Source: Tagaea sp. CACIAM 22H2 (GTDB lineage: Bacteria; Pseudomonadota; Alphaproteobacteria; CACIAM-22H2). From it: a stretch of DNA of 64,000 nt. Under the pieces are notes generated by a model that saw only the letters and a program-made list of their open reading frames with translations, did not search any database and was not told the DNA's origin. Shown here piece after piece: positions 11,303-27,417 of the stretch. The position numbers and the translations under genes were made by a program. How positions within the stretch are numbered: position 1 is the stretch's first letter; the number at the start of each line of letters is the position of its first letter. The stretch is from assembly GCA_014444615.1 (NCBI GenBank), contig PVXE01000006.1, positions 1 through 64,000 on the forward strand, read 5' to 3'.

Positions 11303-11338
11303 CGTGTCGTCTTTCTTCGAAATTCGCCGTCGGCGCGA

Positions 11339-12376
11339 TTAGCGGATCGCGATGCCTTGCGCCTTGCCGATCGAACCGTTCCAGGCCGCCTTGCAGCCCT
11401 TATAGGTGCGCTCGCAACGGTCGGCCCATTCCGGCAAAACTTGTTCGGCCGAGATTTTCTTGACCTTCGCGAGATCGGCCGGCGCGACTTCGACCAGTGT
11501 CATTTTGTACGACGCGTGCGGCGGCGCGCACTCGCCCTTCCCGATGCTGCAATCGGTCGCCAGCGCGTTGGTGTGGCGGGCCAGATTCCACAGTTCGGAT
11601 TCCATACGCTTCAGCTCGACCGTCACGGCGTCGCGCTGGGCGGGCTTCAGCTTGGCGAACCACGCGGCGTTGACCAGATGCGCCTGCACCGAGCCGGAGA
11701 CCGACAGCGGCAGCAGATGGGAAGTCACTTCCGGCCAGCGGCCGGTATTGGCCGAAGTCGGCGAGGTCACGCCGCAATTGGCGACACCGCGCTGAAGCGA
11801 AGGATAGACTTCCGGAAACGAGATCGTCACCGGCGTGGCGCCCAGCGTTTCAAGCAGCTTCGACATCGACGGCGTGAAGGAACGCACGCGCTGGCCCTTC
11901 AGATCATCGACCGTCTTGATCGCCTGATTGCAGAAAAAGACCTGCGGGCCGAACGGCCAGATCGCCAAAGGCCGCGCGCCGAAGCGCTCTTCCAAGCGCT
12001 TGGCGAAAAGCGGACGATAGGCGTTCACCGAAGCTTCGAGCGAGTCCATGTCGGTCGACACGCCGATGACGTCGATCCCCTCAAGGAACGCATCGTCGCG
12101 CGAGGCGAGGCCAACTTGCGTCGATACGATGTCGTATGTGCCGCTGCGCACCAAACGCAGCGCATCGCCGAGATTGAGGCCCAGCGCCATGAACTCCTGG
12201 CGGTCGACGCGCAAATCGACGCCGGCGGCGGTGATGCGCGCCATCGCGGCGGATTCGATCGGATACTGGGTTTGCACCGTCGGCGTTTGGCTCAGCCAAC
12301 GCACGGTCGTCGTCTGGGCGGAAGCGGCTGTCGCAAAAACGGCCGCCGCGACGGCGCCGATGATCAATGTACGCAT
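11339..12376 (-). CDS. dctP: TRAP transporter periplasmic binding protein (DctP family)
   Basis: A 345-residue protein with a clear Sec signal peptide (MRTLIIGAVAAAVFATAASA, cut before QTTTVRW). The family's ligand-binding stretch is present: LKGQRVRSFTPSMSKLLETLG followed by PEVYPSLQRGVANCG. Family members bind C4-dicarboxylates, sialate or aromatic acids; this ligand is unknown. The start at 12376 was chosen because the signal peptide begins there; the frame running on to 12841 overlaps the deacetylase gene. It is co-transcribed with a GntR regulator and a CE4-like deacetylase, which suggests an amide- or ureide-related acid as ligand. Confidence 0.88.
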   Translation of the reverse strand: MRTLIIGAVAAAVFATAASAQTTTVRWLSQTPTVQTQYPIESAAMARITAAGVDLRVDRQEFMALGLNLGDALRLVRSGTYDIVSTQVGLASRDDAFLEGIDVIGVSTDMDSLEASVNAYRPLFAKRLEERFGARPLAIWPFGPQVFFCNQAIKTVDDLKGQRVRSFTPSMSKLLETLGATPVTISFPEVYPSLQRGVANCGVTSPTSANTGRWPEVTSHLLPLSVSGSVQAHLVNAAWFAKLKPAQRDAVTVELKRMESELWNLARHTNALATDCSIGKGECAPPHASYKMTLVEVAPADLAKVKKISAEQVLPEWADRCERTYKGCKAAWNGSIGKAQGIAIR

Positions 12377-12414: not shown

Positions 12415-13296
12415 CTATGCCATTGAAGCGGCGCGCCAATGCGCCGCGATCTGATCGGTCGTCGCGAGCCACACATCGGGATGCGGGGCCGCGATATGGC
12501 GCAACGCCTTGCGCAACGCGCGCAGCCGGAACGGCTGGCCGGCGACATATGCATGCAGGGCCACACCCATTACCAACGGCACGCCCTGCCCCGCCTGTTC
12601 GCGCATTTCGTCGAACTGGTCGACGATCATGTCGGCGAACTCGGCGGCACCATGGCGGCGCGCGACGATGGCGTTCGAATCGTTCAGCTCCTGCGGATAC
12701 GGCACGCTCAGCAACTTGCCGCCATCGACGCGAAGCCAAATCGGCTGATCGTCCATGCACCAGTCGAGCGCGTAGCCGAAACCCGCCGCGTGCAGAAGAT
12801 CCGGCGTGCGTTCCGTTTCGGCGATCCAAGGCCCGAGCCAACCTTGCGGGGCCGCGCCGGTATGCGCGGCGATGCCATCGCGCGCACCCTCGATCAACGC
12901 CCGTTCGGCGGCTTCATCGAGCCCCGCCTGACTTTCTGAATTGGTGCGGCCATGCGCGACGATTGCCGCGCCCGCCTTTCGATAGGCCTCGACTAGCGCG
13001 CCGTGGCGTTCGAAGATCGCCGAATTGACGAGCAGTGATGCCGGAAGCTGGGCGGCCTTAAACTCGTCGTGCAACCGCCACGCGCCGATACGGTTGCCGT
13101 ACTCCCGCCAAGACCAGTTCAGAACGTCGGGCTGGCCGCTGCCGGGCACGATATCCTCCGACAGGCCTTCGCCGAACGCGTAGGATTCGAGATTCAGCGC
13201 GACATAGACCGCGAGTTTGCGGCCGCCGGGCCACGCACCCTTCGTGCGGTGGACGATCGGCGTATCGTCGAAACGGCCAGGATGCCGGAGTGCCAT
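12415..13296 (-). CDS. Polysaccharide-deacetylase (CE4/PuuE-like) family hydrolase
   Basis: A 293-residue cytoplasmic protein with no signal peptide, belonging to the NodB/CE4-like fold group that includes the cofactor-independent allantoinase PuuE. Its frame contains WPGGRKLAVYVALNLESYAFG at the N-terminus, as in PuuE-like proteins. GVALHAYVAGQPFRLRALRKAL near the C-terminus is also typical. The canonical CE4 metal HxxxH motif is not obvious, which fits the PuuE-like branch rather than chitin deacetylases. ATG at 13296 is 11 bp after the GntR stop. It may hydrolyse a cyclic amide or ureide. A relative lies at 25151-26044. Confidence 0.82.
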   Translation of the reverse strand: MALRHPGRFDDTPIVHRTKGAWPGGRKLAVYVALNLESYAFGEGLSEDIVPGSGQPDVLNWSWREYGNRIGAWRLHDEFKAAQLPASLLVNSAIFERHGALVEAYRKAGAAIVAHGRTNSESQAGLDEAAERALIEGARDGIAAHTGAAPQGWLGPWIAETERTPDLLHAAGFGYALDWCMDDQPIWLRVDGGKLLSVPYPQELNDSNAIVARRHGAAEFADMIVDQFDEMREQAGQGVPLVMGVALHAYVAGQPFRLRALRKALRHIAAPHPDVWLATTDQIAAHWRAASMA

Positions 13297-13306
13297 CGGC
13301 GCGCCC

Positions 13307-14086
13307 TCAATGACCGCGACGGCGGCGCGGCGCCGCCGGGCGCGGCGACAAAGCCGCCTCCAACGGATCGGCGTCGCGCGGGGCCGCGTCGAGATCGAGA
13401 CCCGCGAGAACATGATCGAGATGGCGGCGCATCAACGCCGCCGCGGCGCGCGGATCGCGCGCTTCGATCGCGTCGACGATCGACGCGTGTTCGTCGGGCG
13501 GACAAGCGGACTCGCCGGTCCGATCGTGCGCGAGAATGGCAAGGCACGTGACCGTCTCGTACTCGGCCAGCGTGCGCGCGAGAATGCCGTTTCCGGCCAT
13601 TGCGGCCAGCTTCAGATGGAACTCGCCGGTCAGGCGAACCAGGCCGACACGGTCGCCGCGCTTGCGCGCCGCGTCTTCGGTGCGCAGATGCATGCGCAGC
13701 TTGGCGACATCGGCCGGCGACGCATTGGTCGCGACGCGCGCGACCAACTCGATTTCGATCAAACGACGCGCGTCGAACACGTCGGCCGTGCGTTTGGCGT
13801 CGGGCCAGGCGATCCGAGCACCTTGGTTCGGCGACAACTCGACCAGCCCGGCCTGGGCAAGCTTCGCCAAACCCTGGCGCACGATCGTGCGGCTGACGCC
13901 GAAATAAGCACCCAGCTTTTCCTCGACCAGCCGCGTGCCGGGCGCCAAACGATGCGATTGGATCGCTTCGACCACGCGATCGAACACGTTCTCCGCCGTG
14001 GCACCGGCCCGGCGCCCGCGCGGCGCCGTCGCTTTTTTCCGCCGAGTGCCCGCCGGGCGGGCGGCGATCGCCTTCGAATTCGGCAT
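13307..14086 (-). CDS. GntR-family (FCD) transcription regulator 1
   Basis: A 259-residue regulator. After a basic N-terminus (1-28) comes a GntR winged helix (~30-95; LGAYFGVSRTIVRQGLAKLAQAGLVEL). An all-helical FCD effector domain follows, with metal/ligand residues in GEFHLKLAAMAGN, DEHASIVDAI and RRHLDHV. The C-terminal tail ...LEAALSPRP is shared with the second GntR at 28660-29379, so the two are paralogues. It is the first gene of the deacetylase-TRAP operon and diverges from the ABC operon at 14356. A strong palindrome between the genes is its likely operator. Confidence 0.92.
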   Translation of the reverse strand: MPNSKAIAARPAGTRRKKATAPRGRRAGATAENVFDRVVEAIQSHRLAPGTRLVEEKLGAYFGVSRTIVRQGLAKLAQAGLVELSPNQGARIAWPDAKRTADVFDARRLIEIELVARVATNASPADVAKLRMHLRTEDAARKRGDRVGLVRLTGEFHLKLAAMAGNGILARTLAEYETVTCLAILAHDRTGESACPPDEHASIVDAIEARDPRAAAALMRRHLDHVLAGLDLDAAPRDADPLEAALSPRPAAPRRRRGH

Positions 14087-14355: not shown

Positions 14356-15399
14356 ATGACCGAACCGACCCGCCTCGCCTTGCGCCGCCGCAGTTTTCTC
14401 GCCGGGTCGCTCGCCGGCGCCGGCATTCTCGCCGCGCCCGCGATCGTTCGCGCCCAGCCGAAGGAAATGGTCGTCGGCGGCGCGTCCAGCCAACAGACCT
14501 GGACCAACGAGATCATGATCCCGGCCTTCGAGAAGAAGTACAATATCAAGGTCGTCTACGAGGGCACGCGTTCGCTCGTGAACCTCGAGAAGATGCAAAA
14601 GAACAAGGGCAGCCAGTATCTGTCGCTCGTCCAGATGGACGATCCGGTGATGATCACCGCCGTCGCCGAGGGCCTGCTGACGCCGTTGACCAAGGTCGTG
14701 CCGAACGCCGCGTCGCTGAAGCCCGGTGTCACGCATATGGAAGGCATGTGGGTCAACTACCTGCAGCCCTGGGTCGGCATCGCCTACAACACGAACCGCA
14801 TGGCCGCCCCGACGTCGTGGGCCGAAGCCTACGACCCCAAGTACAAGGGCCGCGTCATCCTGCCGGGCCTGCAGAACACCGAAGGCGTGATGAACCTGTT
14901 CCTCGCCTCGTTCCTCAAGACCGGCAAGCCGATGGCCGAGGCGCAGAAGGATATGGACGCGGCCTTCGCCAAGCTGAAGGAAATGAAGCCGAACCTGCTG
15001 ATGGCCTATACGCAGGAAGGCCAAGCCTACAATCTGCTCGAGCAGGGCGAAGCCTTCATGGTCTACGGCTCGATCTCGACGCTGGCGCTGGCGCGCAAGG
15101 CGCGCGGCGCACCGATCGAATTGGCCGCCCCCAAGGAAGGCACCTTCTCGATGCCGTCGGGCGTGGCGCTGGTCAAAGACGGCCCGATGCCCGAAATGGC
15201 GGCCGCGTATATCGATCTGATGCTGAGCCCGGAAATTCAGGCGCAGCTAGCCGCCGCGACCTACGCTTTGCCGACCAACGGCAAGGTGCCCGCCCCCGCA
15301 GGCCTCGACAAGCTGGTCATCCATCCGATCGATTGGGCGAACGTGTCGGCCAACCGCGCCAGCTGGGTAACCCGCTGGGACAAGGAAATGTCGCTCTGA
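14356..15399 (+). CDS. ABC transporter substrate-binding protein 1 (spermidine/putrescine-like family)
   Basis: A 347-residue periplasmic binding protein with a twin-arginine leader (RRRSFLAGS, then a hydrophobic run and AxA site near residue 36). The mature N-terminus EMVVGGASSQQTWTNE and the motif VQMDDPVMITAV are shared with the paralogue at 23972-25030. ATG 14356 is preceded by CAGGAGAG. It is the first gene of a complete importer operon (binding protein, ATPase, two permeases) ending with an AMDase-like enzyme. The fold group binds polyamines, iron or small organic acids; the ligand here is unknown. Confidence 0.9.
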   Translation: MTEPTRLALRRRSFLAGSLAGAGILAAPAIVRAQPKEMVVGGASSQQTWTNEIMIPAFEKKYNIKVVYEGTRSLVNLEKMQKNKGSQYLSLVQMDDPVMITAVAEGLLTPLTKVVPNAASLKPGVTHMEGMWVNYLQPWVGIAYNTNRMAAPTSWAEAYDPKYKGRVILPGLQNTEGVMNLFLASFLKTGKPMAEAQKDMDAAFAKLKEMKPNLLMAYTQEGQAYNLLEQGEAFMVYGSISTLALARKARGAPIELAAPKEGTFSMPSGVALVKDGPMPEMAAAYIDLMLSPEIQAQLAAATYALPTNGKVPAPAGLDKLVIHPIDWANVSANRASWVTRWDKEMSL

Positions 15400-15425
15400 T
15401 CGAACCCACGACGAAGAAGCATCAG

Positions 15426-16514
15426 ATGGCCGGAAACGAAGGATTTCTCGATGTCGGCGGCGCGGAGAAATCCTTCGCCGGCCATCGCGTGCTCAATGGC
15501 GTGGATATCAAGATCGCCCGAGGGGAGTTCGTCTCTCTCCTCGGGCCTTCGGGCTGCGGCAAAACCACATTGCTGCGCATCGTCTCGGGATTGATGAGCC
15601 CCGATCAGGGGCGCGTCACGCTCGACGGCAAGGACATCACGAACACGCCGCCGCATCTGCGCGACGTCGGCGTCGTGTTCCAGAACTATGCTTTGTTCCC
15701 GCATCTCTCGGTCGCCGAGAATGTGCGCTTCGGCTTGCGCGCGCGCAAAGTGCCAAAGGACCAGCACCAGGCGACGATCGATAAATTTCTTGGCCTCGTC
15801 CATATGTCGGCCTTCGCCGACCGGCCGGTGCGCGGCCTGTCCGGCGGCCAGCAGCAGCGCGTGGCGGTCGCCCGCGCCCTCGCCGTCGCCCCCAAACTCA
15901 TGCTGCTCGACGAACCGTTCTCGGCCCTCGATCGCAAATTGCGCGAGAACATGCAGATCGAGCTGAAGGGCCTGTTGCGCTCGCTCGGCATCACGACCGT
16001 TCTGGTTACACACGACCAGGAAGAAGCGCTCGTGATGTCGGACCGCGTCGCCGTGATGAGCCGCGGCACGATCGAACAATTCGCGGCGCCGTCGGACGTC
16101 TATCTTAAGCCCAAGACCGGGTTCGTGCTGGAGTTCGTCGGTCATTCGACGCGCATCGCCGGCACGGCCGGTCCCGCCGAAGGCGACATTCTGGCGGTCG
16201 ACACAGCGTTCGGCCGGATCTTCGTCCAAGCCGGCTATACACGCGGCTCCGCCGTCACCCTCGCCGTGCGGCCCGAGCGCATCGCGCTGGGCGCCCCGCC
16301 CGTGAAGGACGCGGTCAACTATATCGACGCCGAAGTGAAAGAGATCATCTTCCAAGGCTCGCGCATCCATGTGCTGCTCGCTGGTCCGAACGGGGCCAGC
16401 GCCATGGTCGAGACGAGCGCGCTGCCGCCGGGCCTTGCCATCGGCACGCAAACGACGCTCTGGTGGCGCCTGGAAGACACGCTGATCTATCCGGCCGAGG
16501 CGCAAGCCGCATGA
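15426..16514 (+). CDS. ABC transporter ATP-binding protein 1 (PotA-like)
   Basis: A 362-residue ATPase. Walker A is at 40-48 (GPSGCGKTT), the signature LSGGQQQR at 138-145, Walker B LMLLDEP at 158-164, and H196 in the H-loop. The C-terminal TOBE domain carries the family motif AVRPERI. ATG 15426 lies 26 bp after the binding-protein stop; the frame reaching back to 13935 is read-through and not coding. It is paralogous to the ATPase at 22831-23910. Confidence 0.93.
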   Translation: MAGNEGFLDVGGAEKSFAGHRVLNGVDIKIARGEFVSLLGPSGCGKTTLLRIVSGLMSPDQGRVTLDGKDITNTPPHLRDVGVVFQNYALFPHLSVAENVRFGLRARKVPKDQHQATIDKFLGLVHMSAFADRPVRGLSGGQQQRVAVARALAVAPKLMLLDEPFSALDRKLRENMQIELKGLLRSLGITTVLVTHDQEEALVMSDRVAVMSRGTIEQFAAPSDVYLKPKTGFVLEFVGHSTRIAGTAGPAEGDILAVDTAFGRIFVQAGYTRGSAVTLAVRPERIALGAPPVKDAVNYIDAEVKEIIFQGSRIHVLLAGPNGASAMVETSALPPGLAIGTQTTLWWRLEDTLIYPAEAQAA

Positions 16515-17347
16515 CGACGAAGCTCCGCTTCGATCCGGTGCTGCTGCTGGCTGTGCCGGCGGCGATCTACATGGTGATCGTGTTCGCGATTCCGGTCCTA
16601 TGGCTGGTCGCGCGCGGCTTTATGGATGCCGACGGGTTCACGCTGTCGAACTACATCAAGTTTCTGTCTGAGCCGTTCAACTGGGTCGTTATCGGCAATA
16701 CGTTGCGCGTCGCCTTCTGGACGACTGTGGTTTGTCTCGCGCTCGGCTATCCCACGGCGGTCGCCCTCGCGCGTTCAAAGGGCGCCGTCCAAGTCGCGAT
16801 GCTGATCGCGATCATCTTGCCGCTGTCGGTCGGCGTGGTCGTCAAGACCTTCGCCTGGCAGATCGTGTTGCGCCGCGACGGCATCGTCGCAGCGCTCCTC
16901 GTCGCGACCGGCGTATGGGATGAACCTAAGCTGCTGCTGTTCACCGAACACGGTCTCGTCATGGGTGCCGCGAACGTGTTCCTGCCCTTCATGATCCTGC
17001 CGATCTACTCGGTGCTGAAACTCGCCGACCCCAATTTGCAGGACGCGGCCGCCACGCTCGGCGCCCCGCCCGTGTTCCGCTTCTTCAACGTGGCGCTGCC
17101 GCTGGCCATGCCCGGTATCATTGGCGGCGTGTCGATCGTGTTCTCGCTGGCCACATCGATGTATGTCATTCCCAGCCTGCTGATCGGCGACCGGTTCCAA
17201 ACGCTGGCAACGCTGACGGGCCGCGCCTTCTTGCTGATGCGCAACGAAGCCTTGGGCGCCACGACCGCAACCATCCTGCTGTTCCTGGCCGTCGCCATCG
17301 TCGCGTGCAGCGCATTGCTGTCCCGCGGCAAGGGAGATTCGCGATGA
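16511..17347 (+). CDS. ABC transporter permease 1a (PotB-like)
   Basis: A 278-residue inner-membrane permease with about six helices, starting with a helix at ~10-32. The EAA loop is DAAATLGAPPVFRFFNVALP. The start MTTKLRF at 16511 overlaps the ATPase stop (ATGA). It matches the permease at 21995-22834 along its length, for example ILPLSVGVVVKTFAWQIVLR against ILPLSIGAVVKAFSWQIVLR, so the two importers are duplicates. Confidence 0.93.
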   Translation: MTTKLRFDPVLLLAVPAAIYMVIVFAIPVLWLVARGFMDADGFTLSNYIKFLSEPFNWVVIGNTLRVAFWTTVVCLALGYPTAVALARSKGAVQVAMLIAIILPLSVGVVVKTFAWQIVLRRDGIVAALLVATGVWDEPKLLLFTEHGLVMGAANVFLPFMILPIYSVLKLADPNLQDAAATLGAPPVFRFFNVALPLAMPGIIGGVSIVFSLATSMYVIPSLLIGDRFQTLATLTGRAFLLMRNEALGATTATILLFLAVAIVACSALLSRGKGDSR

Positions 17348-18144
17348 CGCTCACCGAACGCAGCGCCAACATCGCCGTTTGGGTGATCGCCGCCGCGACG
17401 GTGGTTTTCCTGCTGACGCCGCTGGTCGTCGCCGTCGTCGTATCGTTCGGGTCGAGCAATCTGTTCACCTTGCCCCCGCCCGGCTGGTCGATGCGCTGGT
17501 ATCAGCGCCTGATGAATGTGCGCGGCTTGTCCAGCTCGCTGCTCGTCTCGGTCCAGATCGCGGCGGTCGCAACATTCGTCTCCATGTTGATCGGCGGCAT
17601 GGCGGCGACGGCGCTGGCGCGCGGGCGCTTCGCGGGCCGCGAAGCGATCGCCGCCTTCCTCACGTCGCCCTTGATGCTGCCGGGCCTCGTGCTCGGCATC
17701 GCCTTCCTGCAGGCCTTCCGCTTTGCCGGCTTGCGCGACGTGTGGCTGAGCCTTGCCCTCGCCCATGTCGTCATCACCATCCCCTATATCGCGCGCACGC
17801 TCTATTCGGCGCTGACGCTGTTCGATTTCTCGCTGATCGATGCGGCTCGCACACTGGGCTGTTCGGCACCGCAAGCCGTGACGCGCGTGCTGATCCCGAA
17901 CCTGGCACCCGCCTTCCTGACATCGGGGATCTTCGCCTTCCTGGCGTCGATGGATAATTACGCGGTGTCGATCTTCTTCACCAACGCGTGGACGAAGACG
18001 TTGCCGATCCAGATGCTGAATCTGGTCGAAGAACAGCCCGATCCGACGATCGCGGCGATTTCCAGTCTGTTGATCGGCTTGGTCCTGTTGCTGCTGCTGC
18101 TGTGCGAACGTATGGTCGGCTTGCGCAAAATCGCGGAGATGTGA
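17344..18144 (+). CDS. ABC transporter permease 1b (PotC-like)
   Basis: A 266-residue permease with six helices and the EAA loop DAARTLGCSAPQAVTRVLIP. Start and stop overlap its neighbours (ATGA at 17344-17347; the stop TGA at 18142-18144 shares a base with the next ATG). The segment LASMDNYAVSIFFTNAWTKT closely parallels the permease at 21198-21998. It completes importer 1. Confidence 0.93.
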   Translation: MTLTERSANIAVWVIAAATVVFLLTPLVVAVVVSFGSSNLFTLPPPGWSMRWYQRLMNVRGLSSSLLVSVQIAAVATFVSMLIGGMAATALARGRFAGREAIAAFLTSPLMLPGLVLGIAFLQAFRFAGLRDVWLSLALAHVVITIPYIARTLYSALTLFDFSLIDAARTLGCSAPQAVTRVLIPNLAPAFLTSGIFAFLASMDNYAVSIFFTNAWTKTLPIQMLNLVEEQPDPTIAAISSLLIGLVLLLLLLCERMVGLRKIAEM

Positions 18145-18887
18145 TGCCCACGCCGACTGAACGTTTTCTCGCCCAGAACAAGTATCTGGCGGTGGTCACG
18201 CCGTCCGGCAACAACGTCGTCGAACGCGTGACCGCCGGCGTGTTGTCGCATTTTCCTGCGGTCGTGCCGCTGCATTCGCGCACGCCCGTTTTCGGCACCA
18301 GCGATCCATTCCCCGGCAGCTACGATTGGCAATCGATGACGCGCGCCGCCGAGCTGCTCGGCCATGCCAAGCCGGGCGTGATCGTGTGGAACGGCAGCAA
18401 GGGCGGCTCGGTCGGCCATAAAATCGAAGAAGAACTCGTCCAGCGCCTGTCCGAAACGGCCGGCTGTCCGGCGACCACGTCGCTGTTCGCGCAGATCGAT
18501 GCGCTGAACGCGTTGGGTGCGAAGCGCATCGGCTTCGTAACACCCTATCTCGACCCGTATCAGGCGAAGGTCGAAGCGAATTTCGCGGCGCTGGGTTTCG
18601 AGACCGTGTCGCGCTCCAATCTGCGCCTGACCGACAATCTCAGCTACGCCTTCGTGCCGCTCGACACGATCCGCGAACAGGCGCGCGACGCCGCCAAAGC
18701 AAAGCCCGACGTGCTGATTGGCTGGTGCACGAATTATCCCGCCGCGATCGTGGCGGCGGAGATTGAGGCCGAGACCGGCATTCCCTTCCACGACGCGACG
18801 TCAATCGTGATCTGGAAGGCGTTGAAGATGCTGGGCGCCGATCCTGCGCCCGCCGCCGCCGCGTGGGGCGGCGTGTTCAAGCTCTAG
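18144..18887 (+). CDS. Maleate isomerase / arylmalonate decarboxylase-like protein 1
   Basis: A 247-residue cytoplasmic enzyme of the Asp/Glu racemase superfamily, in the branch holding maleate cis-trans isomerase and arylmalonate decarboxylase (AMDase). VTPSGNNVVE near the N-terminus is the typical first motif. The second catalytic cysteine is present (C195 in GWCTN). The first cysteine, which racemases and isomerases need, is replaced by N83 in WNGSKGGS. A single catalytic cysteine is the AMDase arrangement, so decarboxylation of a substituted malonate is plausible. It is the last gene of importer 1's operon and converges with the amidohydrolase (stops overlap at 18884-18887). The exact reaction is inferred. 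Confidence 0.85.
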   Translation: MPTPTERFLAQNKYLAVVTPSGNNVVERVTAGVLSHFPAVVPLHSRTPVFGTSDPFPGSYDWQSMTRAAELLGHAKPGVIVWNGSKGGSVGHKIEEELVQRLSETAGCPATTSLFAQIDALNALGAKRIGFVTPYLDPYQAKVEANFAALGFETVSRSNLRLTDNLSYAFVPLDTIREQARDAAKAKPDVLIGWCTNYPAAIVAAEIEAETGIPFHDATSIVIWKALKMLGADPAPAAAAWGGVFKL

Positions 18888-20389
18888 CCCTGCCCGCCGC
18901 GTCGCTGCAGGCCCACGTCGCGCGCCATCGCGCGCTGGTACATCTGCCGATAGACAGGCTCGAGTTTGGCAGCCTCAACGCGCAGCGCAGCCATATCGGC
19001 GGCGAGCTTGGGCGTGAGTTCGGCGATCTCCGCGTAAATCGCTTTCTCGTCGAGCGTCAGCAGGCGGCCGTTATGCACGACGAGTTCGCCGTCGACGACC
19101 ACGTCGCGCACCGACGATCCGGTTTCGCAGAACACGAGCTGGCGTTCGATATCGTTGAGCGGCACGAAAGCCGGCGTTTCAAGATCGACGAGGATCACGT
19201 CGCCCGCCGCCCCGACTTCCAGCTTTCCGAGCTTTTCCCTCCGACGTGCGGCACGCGCCCCGCCATCGAACAACGCGTCGAGAACTTCGGGCGCAGACGG
19301 CCATTCGCGCCAATCCTCGCGCGCGATATTGTGGACAAGGCCGGCGGCCTTGGCCGCAAGCCACAGATTATGCGTGTCATCGACGGTCGCTTCGTCCGTG
19401 CCGATGGCGATGGGCACACCGGCGTTGCGCAAGCGCCGCCACGGCATGATGCCGCTGCCCAGGCGCAGATTGCAGATCGGGTTATGCGCAACCGTACAGC
19501 CCGATTTCGCCAACACGGCGATGTCTTCGTCATCGATCCAGATCGCATGGATGACGAGCATACGTTCGTCGAGGAAGCCGAGATCATCGACGTATTTGAC
19601 GAGGGACTTTCCGAGCTTCTCCTCGCCGAATACGCGCTGCGTCTTGGTCTCCAGAATATGAACGAAAAACGGGAGATCGCGCGCGCGCGACAACGCGGAC
19701 AGGCGCGCGAAGTAGTCCTTGGTCACGCGATGCGGCGCCGAGCACGACACGGCCGCGCCCAACCGCCCGCGCGCCGCCCCATGCCATTTTCCGACGAGAT
19801 GCGCGTAGCATTTCATCAATTCCTCGGCCGATTGACGCGGAGCCGCGTCCATCGCCTGGCGCGTGGCATCGTCGATCAACTCGGCGAGAAACGGCTGTTT
19901 CTCGTACTCGACGATATTGGGCTGATCGAGGGCGACGGTCGCGCGCATGCCGGAATCGCGATAGGCGGTCATCACCGCATCGATCGCGTCCGGCGAAACG
20001 GTCGGCACGAAAAACGCGTCGTCAAGCACCGTGGTGATGCCGAGTTTCAGCATTTCGATGGCGCCCAAGGCCGTGCGCAAATAGGCGAGCCGCCCGGCCG
20101 TGGCGCCGTCGGCCAGCGGCGGCACCTCGTAGAGCATGAAGACTTCAAGCGGATAGGAATCGAGACAGCCGCGCATCAAATTGCCCGGCGAATGGATATG
20201 CGCGTTGATCAAGCCCGGCAGCGCCAGCTTTCCGTCGGCCTGCACGACCTCAACGCCCGGCGGCGGATCGACGACCTTGCCGATTGCCGCGATCTTGCCG
20301 TCGCGGATCAAAATGTCGGCAGCGCCAAGCGAGCGCGGCCGCGCGGGCGATGCAATTCGGGCGTTGCGGATCAGCAAATCGTGGGTCAT
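18884..20389 (-). CDS. Amidohydrolase (chlorohydrolase/deaminase superfamily) 1
   Basis: A 501-residue metal-dependent hydrolase of the AtzA/TrzN/cytosine-deaminase group. Metal and catalytic motifs in order are HIHSPGNLMRG, FVHILET, VIHAIWIDDEDI, VAHNPICNLRLGSG and GTDEATVDD. The N-terminal IRNARIAS strand and the C-terminal VVVDGELVVHNGRLL are typical of the composite beta domain. Family reactions are deamination or dechlorination of N-heterocycles. ATG 20389 was chosen because the rest of the long frame (to 20797) lies in the opposite-strand enzyme gene. It is transcribed alone, between the two AMDase-like genes. Confidence 0.9.
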   Translation of the reverse strand: MTHDLLIRNARIASPARPRSLGAADILIRDGKIAAIGKVVDPPPGVEVVQADGKLALPGLINAHIHSPGNLMRGCLDSYPLEVFMLYEVPPLADGATAGRLAYLRTALGAIEMLKLGITTVLDDAFFVPTVSPDAIDAVMTAYRDSGMRATVALDQPNIVEYEKQPFLAELIDDATRQAMDAAPRQSAEELMKCYAHLVGKWHGAARGRLGAAVSCSAPHRVTKDYFARLSALSRARDLPFFVHILETKTQRVFGEEKLGKSLVKYVDDLGFLDERMLVIHAIWIDDEDIAVLAKSGCTVAHNPICNLRLGSGIMPWRRLRNAGVPIAIGTDEATVDDTHNLWLAAKAAGLVHNIAREDWREWPSAPEVLDALFDGGARAARRREKLGKLEVGAAGDVILVDLETPAFVPLNDIERQLVFCETGSSVRDVVVDGELVVHNGRLLTLDEKAIYAEIAELTPKLAADMAALRVEAAKLEPVYRQMYQRAMARDVGLQRRGGQG

Positions 20390-20423
20390 GGTCGCCAAAA
20401 CTCTAGCACGGAACCGCGACGCA

Positions 20424-21161
20424 ATGACTCCCGAAGCGACGAAACGCAAGCATATCGGCATGCTCACGCCGTCCTCCAACACGGTCCTGGAGCCGGTCAC
20501 CGCCGCGATGCTGGCCGACCTGCCGGACGTGACCGCCCATTTCGGCCGTTTCCGCGTGACGGAGATTTCGCTGGGCGAAAAGGCGCTGGCGCAGTTCGAC
20601 GATACGCCGATCCTGGCCGCCGCCGAGTTGCTGGCCGATGCGCGCGCGGGCGCCATTGTGTGGAACGGCACGTCGGCAAGCTGGCTCGGCCTCGACGCCG
20701 ACCGCCGGCTTTGCGCGCGGATCGAGGAGCGCACTGGCGCCAGGGCCGGTACCTCGGTCCTCGCGTTGATGGAATTGTTCCGGGCGATGAACGTCAAGCG
20801 CTACGGCCTCGTCTCGCCCTATCTCGACGATGTGCAGGCGAAGATCGTCGCCAATTTCGAACGCGAAGGCCTGACCTGCGCCGCCGAACGGCACACGGGT
20901 GAGCGGGTCAACTACGCCTTCGCCGAAATCGAGGAAGCGACCATCGCCCGGTTGATCCGCGAGGTGGCGGCCGCCAAGCCCGACGCGATCGTCATTCTGT
21001 GCACGAACATGCGCGGCGGAAAGATCGCGGCGGAGCTGGAACGCGAACTCGGGATTCCGGTTCTCGACACGGTCGCGACTGCCGTGTGGACCGGCCTGCG
21101 CCTGATCGGCGAGAAGCCCGCGCGTGTGCAAGGCTGGGGACGTTTGTTCGAGATTCCGTGA
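20424..21161 (+). CDS. Maleate isomerase / arylmalonate decarboxylase-like protein 2
   Basis: A 245-residue paralogue of the protein at 18144-18887. LTPSSNTVLEP is the first motif, the catalytic cysteine is C193 (LCTNMRGG), and the other cysteine position is again Asn (N81 in WNGTSAS). It diverges from amidohydrolase 1. An in-frame ATG at 20388 shares its bases with that gene's ATG (CATG, 20387-20390) and would add 12 residues. I prefer 20424, since the extra residues are not family-like and translation from 20388 would need its ribosome site inside the divergent gene. It converges with importer 2, 36 bp away. Confidence 0.85.
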   Translation: MTPEATKRKHIGMLTPSSNTVLEPVTAAMLADLPDVTAHFGRFRVTEISLGEKALAQFDDTPILAAAELLADARAGAIVWNGTSASWLGLDADRRLCARIEERTGARAGTSVLALMELFRAMNVKRYGLVSPYLDDVQAKIVANFEREGLTCAAERHTGERVNYAFAEIEEATIARLIREVAAAKPDAIVILCTNMRGGKIAAELERELGIPVLDTVATAVWTGLRLIGEKPARVQGWGRLFEIP

Positions 21162-21197: not shown

Positions 21198-21998
21198 TTA
21201 GAAATCGGCCAAACGCCGCAGCCCGACCAGCCTGTCGCCGACGAACAGCACCACGATCGTCAGCAGGATGAGGCACGCCGACATCGCCGCGATCGACGGA
21301 TCGGGCTGCTCCTCCAGGAATTGCAACATCTGGATCGGCAGCGTCTTGGTGCGCGGATCGGTGAAGAAGATTGAGATCGGATAATTGTCGAGCGAGGCAA
21401 GAAACGCGAACAGCCCAGAAGTCAGGAAGGCCGGCGCCAGCACCGGCACCATCACCTTGCGCAGCGCGCGCGGATAGGAGCAGCCCAGCGTGCGCGCCGC
21501 GTCGATCAGCGAAAAATCGAACAGCGACAGGCTCGCCATCACCGTGCGCATGACATAGGGCATCGTGATGACGATATGCGCGATCAGCAGGCTGGTATAG
21601 GCGTCGCGCAAGCCGAGTTCACGCAGGAACTGCAGCATCGCCACGCCGACCACGAGGCCCGGCATCATCAACGGCGAGACGACGAAGGTCGCGATCGCGT
21701 CGCGGCCGGGGAAGCGCCCGCGTACCGTGGCGATGGCGCAGAGCGTGCCGGCGATCAACGATATCGCAGTCGAGATCGCCGCGATCTGCAACGACAGCAG
21801 CAGCGACGGGATCAAGCCCGCGCGCGCCGCCATGCGCTCGTACCAGCGGAACGACCAATCGGGCGGCGGCAGGGTGAACACCGTCGAGTTGGCGAAGGAC
21901 ACGATCACCGTGACGACCAGCGGCGTCATCAGGAAAACGACCGACAGCGCCGTCACGAAAGCGACATAGAATATGGCAATACGGCGCGTCCGGATCAT
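21198..21998 (-). CDS. ABC transporter permease 2b (PotC-like)
   Basis: A 266-residue inner-membrane permease with about six helices and the EAA loop DAARTLGCSYPRALRKVMVP. It parallels the permease at 17344-18144, including LASLDNYPISIFFTDPRTKTLP. Its ATG overlaps the stop of permease 2a (ATGA, 21995-21998). It is the last gene of an operon that begins with the ring-opening enzyme at 28466. Confidence 0.93.
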   Translation of the reverse strand: MIRTRRIAIFYVAFVTALSVVFLMTPLVVTVIVSFANSTVFTLPPPDWSFRWYERMAARAGLIPSLLLSLQIAAISTAISLIAGTLCAIATVRGRFPGRDAIATFVVSPLMMPGLVVGVAMLQFLRELGLRDAYTSLLIAHIVITMPYVMRTVMASLSLFDFSLIDAARTLGCSYPRALRKVMVPVLAPAFLTSGLFAFLASLDNYPISIFFTDPRTKTLPIQMLQFLEEQPDPSIAAMSACLILLTIVVLFVGDRLVGLRRLADF

Positions 21999-22834
21999 CG
22001 AGCGGACCGCAAGCGGTTGGAGAGATACGAGCTGACCATCACGACCGCGATGGCGATGATCAGCAGGATCACCGCGACGGTCGAGCCGAGCGTCTCATTG
22101 CGTAGAAACAGAAACGACCGGCCGGTCAGCGTGGCGAGCAATTGATAGCGATCGCCGATCAGCAGCGATGGGATCACGTACATCGAGATCGACAGTGAAA
22201 ATACGAAAGCGATACCCGCGACCACGCCGGGCAAGCTGAGGATCGCGGTGATGCGCAGGAAGCCATAGACCGGCCCCGCCCCCAGCGTCGCCGCCGCCTC
22301 GCTCAAACGCGGATCGATCAAGCGCACGACCGAATAGATCGGCAGCACCATGAAGGGTAAAAAGATATTCGCGGCCCCCAAGACGAGCCCGGTTTCGGTG
22401 AACAGGAAGCGCACCGGCTCGTCGATCAGGCCGGTCCATTCGAGGAATCGGTTCACCACGCCGTCGCGGCGAAGCACGATCTGCCACGAAAACGCCTTCA
22501 CGACTGCGCCGATCGATAGCGGCAGGATCATCGCGACCAGCAGCATCACCTGAAGCCAGCCACGCGACATGGCCAGCGCGAACGCGACGGGATAGCCGAG
22601 CAGCAGCGTGACCAGCGTGACAAGGAACGCGATCTTCAGCGTATTGGTCAGCACGCGCCAACTGAACGGATCGGCAAAAAACTTGACGTAGCTGGCGAGC
22701 GTGAACCCATCCGCCGTCCACACGCTCTTGACGAGCAGCAACCCGAGCGGCAGCGCGAAGGCGAAAGCGAGATAGGCGGTCGCCGGCACGGCCAGCCAGG
22801 CGAGCGGATCGATGCGGCGCATCGCCGCGATCAT
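21995..22834 (-). CDS. ABC transporter permease 2a (PotB-like)
   Basis: A 279-residue permease; the first helix spans ~12-34 and the EAA loop is EAAATLGAGPVYGFLRITAIL. ATG 22834 overlaps the ATPase stop; M5 is an alternative start. It pairs with the product of 21198-21998 as the membrane part of importer 2. Confidence 0.92.
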   Translation of the reverse strand: MIAAMRRIDPLAWLAVPATAYLAFAFALPLGLLLVKSVWTADGFTLASYVKFFADPFSWRVLTNTLKIAFLVTLVTLLLGYPVAFALAMSRGWLQVMLLVAMILPLSIGAVVKAFSWQIVLRRDGVVNRFLEWTGLIDEPVRFLFTETGLVLGAANIFLPFMVLPIYSVVRLIDPRLSEAAATLGAGPVYGFLRITAILSLPGVVAGIAFVFSLSISMYVIPSLLIGDRYQLLATLTGRSFLFLRNETLGSTVAVILLIIAIAVVMVSSYLSNRLRSAR

Positions 22835-23910
22835 GCCGGCGCCTCGGCAGGGAAAACGAGCGTATCCGCGATCTGCCAGGAGAATTCGACCACGCCATCC
22901 GCCGGCAATTCGGGCATGTCGGCCGCGTTGAGTTCGGCGACACCTTGGCCGCCCGGCCCCGCGTCGAAAATCACCATCAGCTTGGAACCGAGGAAGACGC
23001 GATCGACGACGCGCGCCGCGACCGAGTTACGATCGGGCGACGGCGGACGGTTGACGGCGATCTTTTCCGGGCGCACGCCCGCGAGCACATCCACGCCGCG
23101 CAGGAAATGCCCCTTGCCGGTGATTTGCCCCAGCTTCGTGTCGAGTTGCACGTAATCGCCATCGACCGACGCGACGGTCGCGCGCAGACGCGTCGAACCG
23201 CCGAGAAACTCGAGCGCGAAAGCCGTCGCGGGCTTGTCGTAGATCGTCTTGGGTGCCGCGAGCTGCTCGATGGCGCCGCGATTCATCACGGCGATGCGAT
23301 CGGACATCACCATCGCCTCTTCCTGGTCGTGCGTGACGAACACGGCAGTGATTCCAAGCTCGCGCAGCAAACGCCGCAGATCGATCTGCATCGACTCGCG
23401 CAGCTTGCGATCGAGCGCCGAGAACGGCTCGTCGAGCAGCAGCAGGCTCGGCCGGATGGCAAGCGCACGTGCGACGGCGACGCGCTGCTGCTGGCCACCC
23501 GACAATGCGAAGATCGTGCGCGGCGCCATCTCCGCCAGCTTCACGAGCGCCAGCGTGCGTTTGACGATCTCCGCGACCTCGCCCTTCGGCGTGCCTTTGG
23601 CTTCGAGGCCGAAGGCGACGTTCTCCGCGACCGTCAGATGCGGAAACAGCGCGTAGTTCTGAAACACAACACCGATATTGCGCTTGTGCGCGGGCAGGGC
23701 GGTCAGATCCTTGCCGTCGACCGCGATCGTGCCGCTGTCGGCGTTCAGCAGCCCGGCGACCAGACGCAGAAGCGTGGTCTTGCCGCAACCCGAAGGCCCC
23801 AGCAGCGAAATGAACTCGCCGCGCCCGACCGCGAGGTCGAGGCGGTCGAGAACGGTCGTTTCGCCGTACGCCTTGGAGACGCCGCGAATATCGAGATGAG
23901 CCTGTGTCAT
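22831..23910 (-). CDS. ABC transporter ATP-binding protein 2 (PotA-like)
   Basis: A 359-residue ATPase with Walker A at 38-46, LSGGQQQR at 136-143, Walker B LLLLDEP just after, and VTHDQEEAMVMSDRIAVM as H-loop region. The C-terminal TOBE domain has the GVRPEKI motif. It is closely similar to the ATPase at 15426-16514. It lies 61 bp downstream of binding protein 2. Confidence 0.93.
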   Translation of the reverse strand: MTQAHLDIRGVSKAYGETTVLDRLDLAVGRGEFISLLGPSGCGKTTLLRLVAGLLNADSGTIAVDGKDLTALPAHKRNIGVVFQNYALFPHLTVAENVAFGLEAKGTPKGEVAEIVKRTLALVKLAEMAPRTIFALSGGQQQRVAVARALAIRPSLLLLDEPFSALDRKLRESMQIDLRRLLRELGITAVFVTHDQEEAMVMSDRIAVMNRGAIEQLAAPKTIYDKPATAFALEFLGGSTRLRATVASVDGDYVQLDTKLGQITGKGHFLRGVDVLAGVRPEKIAVNRPPSPDRNSVAARVVDRVFLGSKLMVIFDAGPGGQGVAELNAADMPELPADGVVEFSWQIADTLVFPAEAPA

Positions 23911-23971
23911 TTGCAGAAGTGCCGCCGCTCGCGCACGAGGTCGCGGGCGGCGACGCCCTTTCGTCGTTTCG

Positions 23972-25030
23972 TCAGATCGCCATCTCGCGGTCCCAACGCT
24001 CGACCAGCATGGTGCGGTTTTTTGTGAACCAGCCCCAATCGGGTGCGAAAACCTCGACGCCCGCCGGCAGCGTGACGGTCGAAGGCGCGTCGAGATTCGT
24101 CGGCAGCGAGTAGGTCAGCGGAGTCAACTCCGCCTGGAGCTGCGCGCTGAGCATCTCGTTGATATAGGCGGTGGCAAGATCCTTGTTCGGCGCATTCGCG
24201 ACGAGGCAGATACCCGACGGCATCGCGAAGATGCCTTCTTTCGGGGCGGAGAGATCGACCGGCGCGCCCGCCTGCTTGCGCAGCAACGCGTAGGACGAGA
24301 ACGTGCCGTGGATCCAAGCTTCGCCCTGCTCCAGCAGATTGAACGACTGCGGCAGGTTCGTGTAGATCGTCAGCAGGCTCGACTTCAGCGTTCGCAGCTT
24401 CTTGAAGCCCGCTTCGAAATCGTATTGCGCATCCTTCAGCGGCTTGCCGGTTTCCAGATGCGCCGCCATGTACAGCGCCCAGGGACCGTCGGTGTTTTGC
24501 AGCGACGGCAGCGCCACCTTGCCCTTCATCCGGGGCTCCCACATCGTCGTCCAACTCGGCACGCCCGACGCCAGCGACTTCGTGTTGTAGGCGAGACCCG
24601 ACCAGGGCGCCTGATAGTTCGCCCACATGCCGTCCATATGGATCGCGGAGGCGCGCAATTTCGACAGATTGGGAATTTGCGCAGCCGGCAACTTTTCGAT
24701 GAGCTTTTCCTCGACCGCCTGGATCATCACCGGATCGTCCATCTGGATGACGGACATCATCGGCTTGTCCTTCGCGGCGCGCATCTTCTCGAGATTGATC
24801 GTCGAGCGCGTGCCTTCGTACAGGATCTTGCAGCTATACTTTTTCTCGAACATCGGAATCACGTGTGAGTCCATCCACGGCTTGTGGCTGGCCGCCCCGC
24901 CGATCACGAGTTCTTTTGTCTGCGCGCGCAGAATCGCCGGGAATCCGGCGACACCGGCGGCGAGTGCGCCGAACCGCAGCATGGAACGGCGGTTCATCGA
25001 TGCGCGTTCGGATTTCTCGATCTGCTCCAT
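23972..25030 (-). CDS. ABC transporter substrate-binding protein 2 (spermidine/putrescine-like family)
   Basis: A 352-residue exported binding protein. A twin-arginine leader (MNRRSMLRFG) starts at residue 12, and cleavage is expected after ILRAQ. ATG 25030 has a long purine-rich ribosome site (AGGAGAGGAGAGGG). Its body matches binding protein 1: KELVIGGAASHKPW, YEGTRSTINLEKM and VIQMDDPVMIQAV. Ligand unknown; upstream operon genes encode cyclic-amide hydrolases, so a nitrogen heterocycle or its opened acid is likely. Confidence 0.9.
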   Translation of the reverse strand: MEQIEKSERASMNRRSMLRFGALAAGVAGFPAILRAQTKELVIGGAASHKPWMDSHVIPMFEKKYSCKILYEGTRSTINLEKMRAAKDKPMMSVIQMDDPVMIQAVEEKLIEKLPAAQIPNLSKLRASAIHMDGMWANYQAPWSGLAYNTKSLASGVPSWTTMWEPRMKGKVALPSLQNTDGPWALYMAAHLETGKPLKDAQYDFEAGFKKLRTLKSSLLTIYTNLPQSFNLLEQGEAWIHGTFSSYALLRKQAGAPVDLSAPKEGIFAMPSGICLVANAPNKDLATAYINEMLSAQLQAELTPLTYSLPTNLDAPSTVTLPAGVEVFAPDWGWFTKNRTMLVERWDREMAI

Positions 25031-25150: not shown

Positions 25151-26044
25151 CTATCCGCCGAAACGCGCGATCCAATGCCGCGCCACATCGGCGCGCGTAG
25201 CGCACCACGCCTGCGCTTCCGGCCGCGTCACGTGATCCAAGATACGCCGCAACCCCGCCATGCGCCCCGGCCGTCCGACCATGCGTAGATGCAGGCCGAT
25301 CGGCAGAATACGAGGGATCTTCGCCCCCTCCTCGTGCAGCCAATCGAAGGCATCGATCGCATAGGTCGAGAAATCAGAGGCGAGCGCAAAACGCTGGAAG
25401 CCTTGGTGAAAATGCATGTCGTTGGTGTCGAACGCATAGGGCAGCACCAAATGGCGTTTGCCGTCGACTTCCACGAAATACGGCAGCTCGTCGCCATAGG
25501 CGTCGCTATCGTAAAGGAACCCGCCCGCCTCAATCAGCAACTTGCGCGTGTTCGAGGACGGCGCCGAACGCGTATGCCAGCCAACGGGCCGCGTGCCGGT
25601 CGTGCGCTCGATCACGGCGATCGTCTTGGCGATCGCTTCGCGCTCTCGCTCGATCGGCATGGTCGCGTGGGTTTCCCAGCGCCAGCCGTGGCAGGCGATC
25701 TCGTGACCGCGCTTGGCCGCGTCGATCGCGATTTCCGGCGAACGTTCGATCGCGCGCCCGCAGGACGACAGCGTGAATTTCACGCCATAGCGATCGAACA
25801 ACTCGGCAATGCGCCAATAGGCGACGCGCGTACCATAGTCGAAATGGGATTCGAGGCACGGATCGGGCCGGCCGACGACTTCGTCGGCGACTTCGTAGAC
25901 CTTCTCGTTGCGCTCGTCGCCGTCGGCGATGGAAAGCTCCGCCCCTTCTTCGAAATTCACGACGAAGGTGACCGCAACGCGCGCCTTATTCGGCCAATCG
26001 GCGAAAGGCGGGTTGGGACCGTAGCCGCGTAGATCGCGCGCCAT
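25151..26044 (-). CDS. PuuE-like polysaccharide-deacetylase-family hydrolase (allantoinase-like)
   Basis: A 297-residue protein opening with RDLRGYGPNPPFADWP and VAVTFVVNFEEGAELS, a pattern close to PuuE, the cofactor-independent allantoinase of urate breakdown. Other family segments are CHGWRWE and LPYAFDTNDMHF. PuuE hydrolyses the cyclic amide of allantoin. Here the neighbours are a ring-opening amidohydrolase and an AtzA-type amidohydrolase rather than urate genes, so another cyclic amide or ureide is likely. ATG 26044 lies 2 bp after the amidohydrolase stop. Confidence 0.87.
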   Translation of the reverse strand: MARDLRGYGPNPPFADWPNKARVAVTFVVNFEEGAELSIADGDERNEKVYEVADEVVGRPDPCLESHFDYGTRVAYWRIAELFDRYGVKFTLSSCGRAIERSPEIAIDAAKRGHEIACHGWRWETHATMPIEREREAIAKTIAVIERTTGTRPVGWHTRSAPSSNTRKLLIEAGGFLYDSDAYGDELPYFVEVDGKRHLVLPYAFDTNDMHFHQGFQRFALASDFSTYAIDAFDWLHEEGAKIPRILPIGLHLRMVGRPGRMAGLRRILDHVTRPEAQAWCATRADVARHWIARFGG

Positions 26045-26046
26045 CT

Positions 26047-27417
26047 TCAAACCGCCTCCATCATCACGCCGGAGCGGCCCGCGCGCGCCCACAAGCGGTC
26101 GGCCGCTTTCTGCGCGGCGGCGATCACGTCATCCGCATCGAACATCGTCGGCTTGCCGTTTTCCATAACCACTTTCCCGTCGATCACCGACGTCGAAACA
26201 TTGGGTCCCACGCCGCTATGGACGACGATACCAATTCCGTCGACGATCGGACGCAGATTCGGCGCCGTGGCATCCAACAAAATGAAATCGGCTTTGGCGC
26301 CGGGTTTCAAAACGCCGATCTCGCCGTCCATCGCCAGCGCCTTCGCCCCGCCTTTGGTCGCCCAGCCGAACACCGTGCGCGCGTCGCAAGTGTAACCGGC
26401 CCCCCGCACGCGCGCGACGGCCAAAGCCGTGCGCATCGATTCGAACATGTCGCCGGTCTTGGTATCGGTGCAGATGGCGATGGTTGCCCCCGCCTTCTCC
26501 AGCGCCACGATCGGGGCGATCATCCCCGCCGATACATTGCCGACGGGCGCATGCGCCACATTGACGCCGGCCTTGCCGACCAATTCGATCTCGGCATCGT
26601 CCAGGAAAATGCAATGCGCCGCCACCAGATCGCCGTTCAGCAAGCCCACTTTGTCGAGCAGTTGCGCGGGCCCCTTGCCTTCGCGCGCGGTCACGCGTTC
26701 GACCTCCATCGGCGACTGGGCGAGATGTGTATGCACTTGGCGCCCGTCCTTCGCCGCAATGTCGGCGACGATGCGCAAGAGATCGCGCGAACACGTATCG
26801 GGCGCGTGCGGCGCGTGAAAACAGCGAATGCGCCCTTCCGCTTTGCCGTCCCAGGCGGCGATCATGTCCTGGCTCTCGGCAAGCGTCGCTTCGCCCAGCT
26901 TGCGATCATGCGTCCAGGCGCCGTCGGCAAGAGCGGCCGTGTCCGCGTCGTGAATACGCCCGCCGACGAAGCCGCGTAAGCCCGTCTCCGCCAGGGCCGC
27001 CGCGCAAGCTTGCGGCTTGCGGTAGTAGTCGACGGCCGTCGTCGTGCCCATGCGCAGCAGTTCCCACGCGCCCAGCCGTGCGAACAGATAGGTCTCCTCG
27101 TCCGACAGCCAATGCCCTTGCGGAATGCCGGGCGTATAGGCAGGTGCGAACCCCAAATCCTCGACCATGCCGCGCACGATCATCAGCGGCGTGTGATTGT
27201 GTACATTGACGAGACCCGGCATCAGGATCTTGCCTTTGGCGTCGATCCGGCGCGCGGCGGTATAGGCGGCGTCGATTTTCTTCGTTTCGCCGAGGGCGAC
27301 GATACGTTTGCCGGTCACCGCAACGGCGCCGTCGCCGATCGCCTTGCCTTCGCCGGTGACGACCACGGCGCCCAAGACGATCAGATCGCAGGCTTGAGGG
27401 ACCATTTCGCTCGTCAT
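26047..27417 (-). CDS. Amidohydrolase (chlorohydrolase/deaminase superfamily) 2
   Basis: A 456-residue cytoplasmic metal-dependent hydrolase. Motifs in order are NVHNHTPLMIVRGM, HTHLAQSPMEVE, AAHCIFLDDAEIEL, VAHAPVGN and CTDTKTGDM. This is the subtype III amidohydrolase pattern seen in AtzA, AtzB, TrzN and guanine or cytosine deaminases. ATG 27417 overlaps the stop of the ring-opening enzyme gene (ATGA). An AtzB/C-like amidohydrolase beside an AtzD-like enzyme recalls s-triazine and pyrimidine breakdown. It is a distant relative of the enzyme at 18884-20389. Confidence 0.9.
   Translation of the reverse strand: MTSEMVPQACDLIVLGAVVVTGEGKAIGDGAVAVTGKRIVALGETKKIDAAYTAARRIDAKGKILMPGLVNVHNHTPLMIVRGMVEDLGFAPAYTPGIPQGHWLSDEETYLFARLGAWELLRMGTTTAVDYYRKPQACAAALAETGLRGFVGGRIHDADTAALADGAWTHDRKLGEATLAESQDMIAAWDGKAEGRIRCFHAPHAPDTCSRDLLRIVADIAAKDGRQVHTHLAQSPMEVERVTAREGKGPAQLLDKVGLLNGDLVAAHCIFLDDAEIELVGKAGVNVAHAPVGNVSAGMIAPIVALEKAGATIAICTDTKTGDMFESMRTALAVARVRGAGYTCDARTVFGWATKGGAKALAMDGEIGVLKPGAKADFILLDATAPNLRPIVDGIGIVVHSGVGPNVSTSVIDGKVVMENGKPTMFDADDVIAAAQKAADRLWARAGRSGVMMEAV

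Follow-up and report, generated by a model that had tools for sequence, protein, structure and literature searches.

Which reaction is catalyzed by two paralogous proteins, AMD-A and AMD-B, that are encoded in the first 64,000 nucleotides of contig PVXE01000006.1 of Tagaea sp. CACIAM 22H2 (this whole stretch is hereafter the window) and that resemble both arylmalonate decarboxylase (AMDase) and maleate isomerase? The initial annotation read them as proteins in which the first of two catalytic cysteines had been lost and Asn stood in its place, and suggested that they may be decarboxylases of substituted malonates. We find by alignment that both have the arrangement of AMDase, with Gly at site 1 and Cys at site 2, and that they are nevertheless not AMDases. 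We tentatively propose, with rather less than even confidence, that they are one-acid, cofactor-free decarboxylases of a carboxylated cyclic ureide with a place in cyclic-ureide catabolism. A narrower proposal is more speculative and, taken by itself, unlikely: AMD-B would be a second, non-homologous 2-oxo-4-hydroxy-4-carboxy-5-ureidoimidazoline (OHCU) decarboxylase, of racemase fold and with a single Cys, that replaces UraD in the window's family. Perhaps it also does so in other bacteria, with hydantoinase as its allantoinase partner. The genes and their active sites are as follows.

18144-18887, + strand: AMD-A, Amdase-family protein, paralogue 1, 247 aa (open reading frame [ORF], PF17645, AlphaFold2 [AF2] model)
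18387-18401, + strand: AMD-A site 1, W82-N83-G84-S85-K86, with G84 aligned to AMDase G74 and K86 to S76
18726-18734, + strand: AMD-A site 2, C195-T-N, with C195 aligned to AMDase C188
18884-20389, - strand: AH1, TRZ/ATZ-type amidohydrolase between AMD-A and AMD-B, with homologues in other AMD loci (family and homologue searches)
20424-21161, + strand: AMD-B, 245 aa, second Amdase-family paralogue and the widespread type (ORF, PF17645, AF2 model)
20661-20675, + strand: AMD-B site 1, W80-N81-G82-T83-S84, with G82-T83-S84 aligned to AMDase G74-T75-S76
21000-21008, + strand: AMD-B site 2, C193-T-N (alignment, as for the other sites)

As the initial annotation had it, the two are true paralogues (~35% identity). 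Both are same-strand ORFs, and both exceed the curated cut-off of the Pfam Amdase family (PF17645; 54.2 bits for AMD-A and 73.3 for AMD-B vs. 25.9). The span from 18144 to 21161 also holds AH1, on the opposite strand. The AF2 models (mean predicted local distance difference test scores of 95.4 for AMD-A and 95.5 for AMD-B) were compared with AMDase by fold scores and profile alignments. The best PDB match of AMD-B was maleate isomerase 2xec (template modeling [TM] score 0.87), followed by AMDase 3dg9 (0.84), and AMD-A best matched maleate isomerases 4fq5, 2xed, and 2xec (0.81-0.83), with AMDase 3dg9 at 0.80. Maleate cis-trans isomerase (NfMI, 2xec; Iso/MaiA, 4fq7) therefore offers the closest fold, and it shares the second Cys, a PSSN motif, and a polar pocket of the Asn163 type. 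The fold matches would favor a maleate isomerase or a classical two-base racemase. Yet the active site of maleate isomerase holds a pair of Cys (NfMI C76 and C194), and the first of them, the nucleophile of the isomerase and the second base of the racemases, is Gly in all clade members aligned; neither AMD-A nor AMD-B has the two catalytic Cys of a two-base racemase, and we consider such an activity very improbable. The Asp/Glu/hydantoin racemase family (PF01177; cut-off 31) admits AMD-B at 40.1 bits and leaves AMD-A out at 23.2. Likeness to EutA of ectoine utilization (TIGR02990) was weak (66.3 and 75.8 bits vs. a cut-off of 318), and no ectoine genes were recognized near AMD-A or AMD-B.

The register of the active site decides how the two proteins are to be read. 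The C-terminal catalytic Cys of the CTN motif is present in both, as first described, and is invariant (C193 in 94/94 B-type and C195 in 8/8 A-type sequences). The WNG(S/T) motif was also correctly recognized, and neither protein has a Cys at the partner position. The claim that Asn occupies this position in place of Gly proved to be a register error of one residue: it is the Gly of WNG(S/T) that aligns with AMDase G74. In HMMER alignments, V-W-N-G-T-S of AMD-B falls on S-L-M-G74-T75-S76 of AMDase, and the chains of the AMDase G74C mutant (3ixm and 3ixl) score below wild type. The F-G-C-T-S of two-Cys relatives occupies the exact place of W-N-G-T-S in AMD-B. When the 94 B-type sequences were compared by profile-profile alignment with five other groups, each of the five results had Gly on the Cys/Gly column. 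With AMD-A this was so in three of four readable comparisons, the fourth being gapped, and no comparison had Asn there. Asn as the first catalytic residue is thus ruled out by three independent alignments (HMMER to AMDase, the two-Cys relatives, and profile-profile). It simply precedes the Gly, and some members carry Ser in its place. The case that would have overturned the initial reading, another Cys taking the first position, was checked as well. C97 of AMD-B, although conserved in 93/94 sequences, lies 15 residues after G82 in the middle of a helix (90-104) and is absent from AMD-A; C152 of AMD-B is conserved in 74/94 only, and C108 of AMD-A is confined to A. On these alignments, AMD-A and AMD-B have the single-Cys logic of AMDase: site 1 is Gly and site 2 is Cys, both proteins keep Tyr126, and AMD-B keeps Thr75-Ser76. 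At the S76 position AMD-A has a Lys (K86), which is invariant in its type (8/8).

In a maximum-likelihood tree, AMD-A and AMD-B fall into one clade of 52 rows (support 100/100), and both the AMDase clade (100/100) and maleate isomerase lie outside it; the AMD-A/B clade comprises at least 100 sequences and is apparently widespread and uncharacterized. The suggestion that Asn marks a new subfamily holds as regards the distinct, fully supported clade, but not as regards Asn, which is not at the catalytic position. Likewise, the first Cys is indeed missing, but its loss is not established: the whole clade is without it, and since the tree is unrooted, a Cys lost and a Cys never present fit it alike. 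The Gly/Cys pair is seen in AMDase, in the AMD-A/B clade, and in a GGTS/CTN group, three groups that are separate and each supported. Two further groups of Amdase-like proteins were seen alongside: a clade without Cys at either site (GISA/GTN type; rows L017, L018, L023, L030, and L031), and a group (L015, L021) in which a Cys directly precedes site 1 and site 2 is Gly.

Membership among the AMDases themselves was judged by the 12 criteria of PMC4996985 (Table 4), mapped on the alignment. Both proteins keep G74, C188, Y126, P14, and V43; T75-S76 is kept in AMD-B and is Ser-Lys in AMD-A. In both, P15 is replaced by Ser, A17 by Asn, L40 by Arg, V156 by Asn, and G189 by Thr, while Y48 is Ala in AMD-B and Phe in AMD-A (Tyr in some A-type orthologues) and M159 is Phe or Tyr. 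The dioxyanion hole (T75, S76, Y126, G189) is consequently incomplete in both, through G189 and, in AMD-A, also through Ser-Lys, and the hydrophobic pocket (L40, V43, Y48, V156, M159, P14-P15) is not preserved. The AMDase motifs LMGTSLSF and ILLSCGGL read VWNGTSASW and VILCTNM here, and the AMDase model NF052327 gave 71.7 and 49 bits vs. a cut-off of 225. Several of the pocket replacements are maleate isomerase residues and make the pocket polar (N19, N163, R42). The survey behind the criteria considered proteins with such changes very unlikely to be arylmalonate decarboxylases and confirmed it for one homologue (PMC4996985). Judged by their residues, then, AMD-A and AMD-B are not AMDases. They resemble the Bordetella bronchiseptica enzyme (EC 4.1.1.76; 3dg9/3dtv) in fold and in the residues just named, but differ in having Arg, Asn, and Ser where it has a hydrophobic CO2-expelling and aromatic pocket, in CTN rather than CGG at site 2, in clade, and in gene context, which for AMDase is a tripartite tricarboxylate transporter and mandelate racemase and here is hydantoinase and ureide genes.

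The initial annotation had connected the two proteins with a gene ~6 kb away that it called barbiturase, decarboxylation of a substituted malonate being the natural next step:

27414-28436, - strand: divergent AtzD/TrzD-family protein, with Lys156/Ser226/Glu230 as R/V/D

Cyanuric acid hydrolases match the product of this gene better than barbiturase does (177 vs. 138 bits), and a deletion makes it shorter than PDB members of the family. The dyad Ser226/Lys156 is reported to be the only one conserved throughout the AtzD family (PMC4051656), and the protein lacks it: in a HMMER alignment to the Azorhizobium enzyme (4nq3), Lys156 is replaced by Arg, Ser226 by Val, and Glu230 by Asp. It is kept in the close relative G006 (87% identity) and clusters with no protein of other AMD loci, where one weak fragment match was found (34% identity, L094). 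By its residues, the protein is not convincing as a barbiturase. Ureidomalonate supplied by barbiturase was rejected as a substrate on these catalytic residues and on the poor conservation of the gene near AMD. A ureidomalonate or alkyl/arylmalonate decarboxylase acting after barbiturase would agree with the Gly/Cys arrangement and with an AtzD-family gene nearby, but six AMDase criteria residues are changed in both proteins, the malonate-decarboxylase pocket (L40, V156, P15, A17, Y48, G189) is absent, both proteins lie outside the AMDase clade and far below the NF052327 cut-off, and the AtzD-family protein is without its catalytic Lys and Ser; we regard this reading as improbable.

Gene context in other bacteria points to a different class of substrate. 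A scan of a genome collection yielded at least 584 confirmed coding stretches for AMD-B, and the best 80 loci (55-92% identity to AMD-B) were examined. They come mostly from Pseudomonadota, with single matches labeled Acidobacteria, a cyanobacterium, and Desulfocapsaceae. A hydantoinase is present in 61 of the 75 gene-called loci, and in 43 of these 75 it directly follows AMD-B in the same orientation, no more than 200 bp away; the two tested exceeded the cut-off of NF009941. In the window genome, a hydantoinase orthologue sits on a different contig (58% identity), and PuuE (allantoinase)-like proteins lie near AMD-B. AMD-B is repeatedly paired with a type of enzyme that can open the hydantoin ring. 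A Halomonas locus (L140) also carries family matches to PuuE, ureidoglycine aminohydrolase, and the ureidoglycolate lyase AllA, together with proteins that, by eye, we take to resemble Gcl (glyoxylate carboligase), Hyi (hydroxypyruvate isomerase), and GlxR (tartronate semialdehyde reductase). Other recurring neighbors are TRAP (tripartite ATP-independent periplasmic), ABC (ATP-binding cassette), and MFS (major facilitator superfamily) transporters and GntR regulators. The papers searched gave no relevant account of an AMDase-like/hydantoinase module. AMD-A has a far narrower range, being found in the window's genus only, and in G002-G004 it stands in tandem behind AMD-B.

The second line of evidence is the distribution of UraD, the OHCU decarboxylase (PF09349/TIGR03164), which belongs to a different family with no detected sequence relationship to AMD-A or AMD-B; the likeness lies in the proposed reaction and in a complementary genome distribution. 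The window genome has 5-hydroxyisourate (HIU) hydrolase and lacks UraD. Among 96 relatives, 12 genomes had an AMD-B orthologue (identity of at least 59%), and in this single-family sample all 12 had HIU hydrolase and none had UraD; 16 genomes had UraD, all 16 with HIU hydrolase and none with AMD-B. AMD-B was never seen without HIU hydrolase in the 96 genomes. Fisher's test gave p = 1.6e-5 when restricted to genomes with HIU hydrolase and p = 0.015 when restricted to the window's family, values that ignore shared ancestry. The two patterns meet within one genus (comparison loci L209-L214 and L221-L223). In G007 and G009, UraD immediately precedes the HIU hydrolase gene (TIGR02962) and a gene which we take by eye to be PuuD (no NCBIfam model matched), beside urease and AllC-like genes, and the G009 copy of UraD exceeds the TIGR03164 cut-off. 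Seven AMD-B-positive congeners (G000, G002-G006, and G010) have the same urease/AllC/HIU hydrolase/PuuD cluster, from which, among recognized pathway genes, only UraD is missing. In PuuD and UreC trees the UraD-positive pair is nested among AMD-B-positive genomes, and an exchange between AMD-B and UraD therefore needs at least two changes.

The chemistry of OHCU would suit such a catalyst. Loss of CO2 from OHCU leaves an enol-type intermediate, which must be protonated on one face to yield (S)-allantoin; AMDase performs the same type of chemistry, losing CO2 to form an enediolate that Cys188 protonates on one face. A polar pocket in which a single Cys faces Gly would fit OHCU better than an arylmalonate. 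In our proposal, the enzyme would bind a small polar carboxylate, CO2 would leave without a cofactor, the resulting enol(ate) would be held by oxyanion contacts of Thr83-Ser84 and Tyr133, and C193 would protonate it from one face, in a stereospecific one-acid decarboxylation. A carboxylated cyclic ureide is the probable substrate, and hydantoinase or a PuuE-type enzyme would then open the ring of the product. For AMD-B, the leading candidate is OHCU to (S)-allantoin, in place of UraD; AMD-A, whose oxyanion position holds Lys, would be a specialized paralogue that acts on a related substrate. Alloxanate or 5-hydroxyhydantoin-5-carboxylate is a fallback substrate only, whose decarboxylation product would give ureidoglycolate on hydrolysis; no literature was found on either as a substrate. 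Little is known of what AMDase-like enzymes do in nature. This clade links a single-Cys catalyst of that kind to hydantoinase as a conserved partner and to the lack of UraD as a specific gap in a pathway, and so to a testable substrate. If correct, the proposal would fill a missing step of purine catabolism and show a natural use for the decarboxylase chemistry of this fold.

It is conceivable that the same features serve a single-Cys enzyme of the same ureide class that does not decarboxylate, such as a one-base tautomerase, a racemase-like enzyme, or a beta-eliminating enzyme, in which water or a different residue (Lys86 in AMD-A) takes the part of site 1. The polar, maleate-isomerase-like pocket, the position of the clade away from AMDase, the invariant Lys of AMD-A, and the frequent occurrence of a Cys-less allantoin-racemase-like protein next door all fit this alternative. 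Conversely, AMDase too has Gly at site 1, AMD-B has no obvious second acid/base, and the UraD pattern is left unexplained; we consider the alternative possible, if doubtful. The neighbor in question deserves mention in its own right: PF01177 proteins resembling allantoin/hydantoin racemase, apparently without both catalytic Cys, are frequent beside AMD-B and hydantoinase (L140:6093-6878, L138:6628-7383, and L063:7207-7947, all on the - strand, and ~30 other AMD loci), with AAFGDPG replacing A-C-FGDPG in most and GGAP or AGAP at the second Cys site in many.

Several observations weigh against decarboxylation of OHCU, or of another carboxylated cyclic ureide, by AMD-B. The CO2-expelling hydrophobic pocket of AMDase is absent, OHCU also decarboxylates spontaneously, and the transporters common among the neighbors suggest an imported substrate. 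All 12 AMD-B-positive genomes of the co-occurrence sample belong to one family; four genomes with HIU hydrolase (one of them 75% complete) have neither UraD nor AMD-B, a set that includes G013, G034, and G057; AMD-A and AMD-B lie outside the PuuD-HIU hydrolase cluster; and neither UraD nor HIU hydrolase occurred in the 80 AMD-B loci of other taxa (0/80, flanks up to 10 kb). Two of these loci (L108, L119) carry, beside AMD-B and hydantoinase, genes that we presume by eye to be Rieske-like and molybdenum-hydroxylase-like. The single-family sample, the lack of linkage, the three named genomes, and these two loci would equally suit an explanation in which the exclusion of AMD-B and UraD reflects shared ancestry only, with AMD-B in an unrelated N-heterocycle uptake pathway and the urate route relying on spontaneous decay of OHCU. 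This would leave unaccounted for the UraD-positive genomes nested among AMD-B-positive ones within one genus and the constant company of HIU hydrolase, and we hold it to be rather unlikely.

The remaining genes around AMD-A and AMD-B include transporters, amidohydrolases, and PuuE-like proteins.

9378-12376, - strand: TRAP transporter (DctM, DctQ-like, DctP), homologues of which flank AMD-B in other taxa
12415-13296, - strand: PuuE1, PuuE (allantoinase)-like, below the TIGR03212 cut-off; its orthologue is linked to AMD genes in relatives
13307-14086, - strand: GntR/FCD regulator
14356-18144, + strand: ABC transporter 1 (whole run, with AMD-A as last gene)
14356-15399, + strand: substrate-binding protein of ABC transporter 1
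15426-16514, + strand: ATPase of ABC transporter 1
16511-17347 and 17344-18144, + strand: permeases of ABC transporter 1
21198-25030, - strand: ABC transporter 2, paralogous to transporter 1
25151-26044, - strand: PuuE2, PuuE (allantoinase)-like, 317 bits vs. the TIGR03212 cut-off of 424.6
26047-27417, - strand: AH2, TRZ/ATZ-type amidohydrolase, with homologues near AMD-B in other loci

The start codon (ATG) of AMD-A shares 1 nt with the stop codon (TGA) of the permease before it, beginning on the last base of that codon, which makes AMD-A the last gene of the ABC transporter 1 run. An inserted gene for a beta-lactamase-fold protein (PF00144; L062:10282-11088, + strand) separates the amidohydrolase from AMD-A in the close relative G006 and is absent from the window. 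Farther along the window, positions 35700-43646 (- strand) encode a protein of very large size (~2650 aa) that is probably a secreted adhesin of the filamentous-hemagglutinin type, as a protein at a similar place in a relative (L194) suggests.

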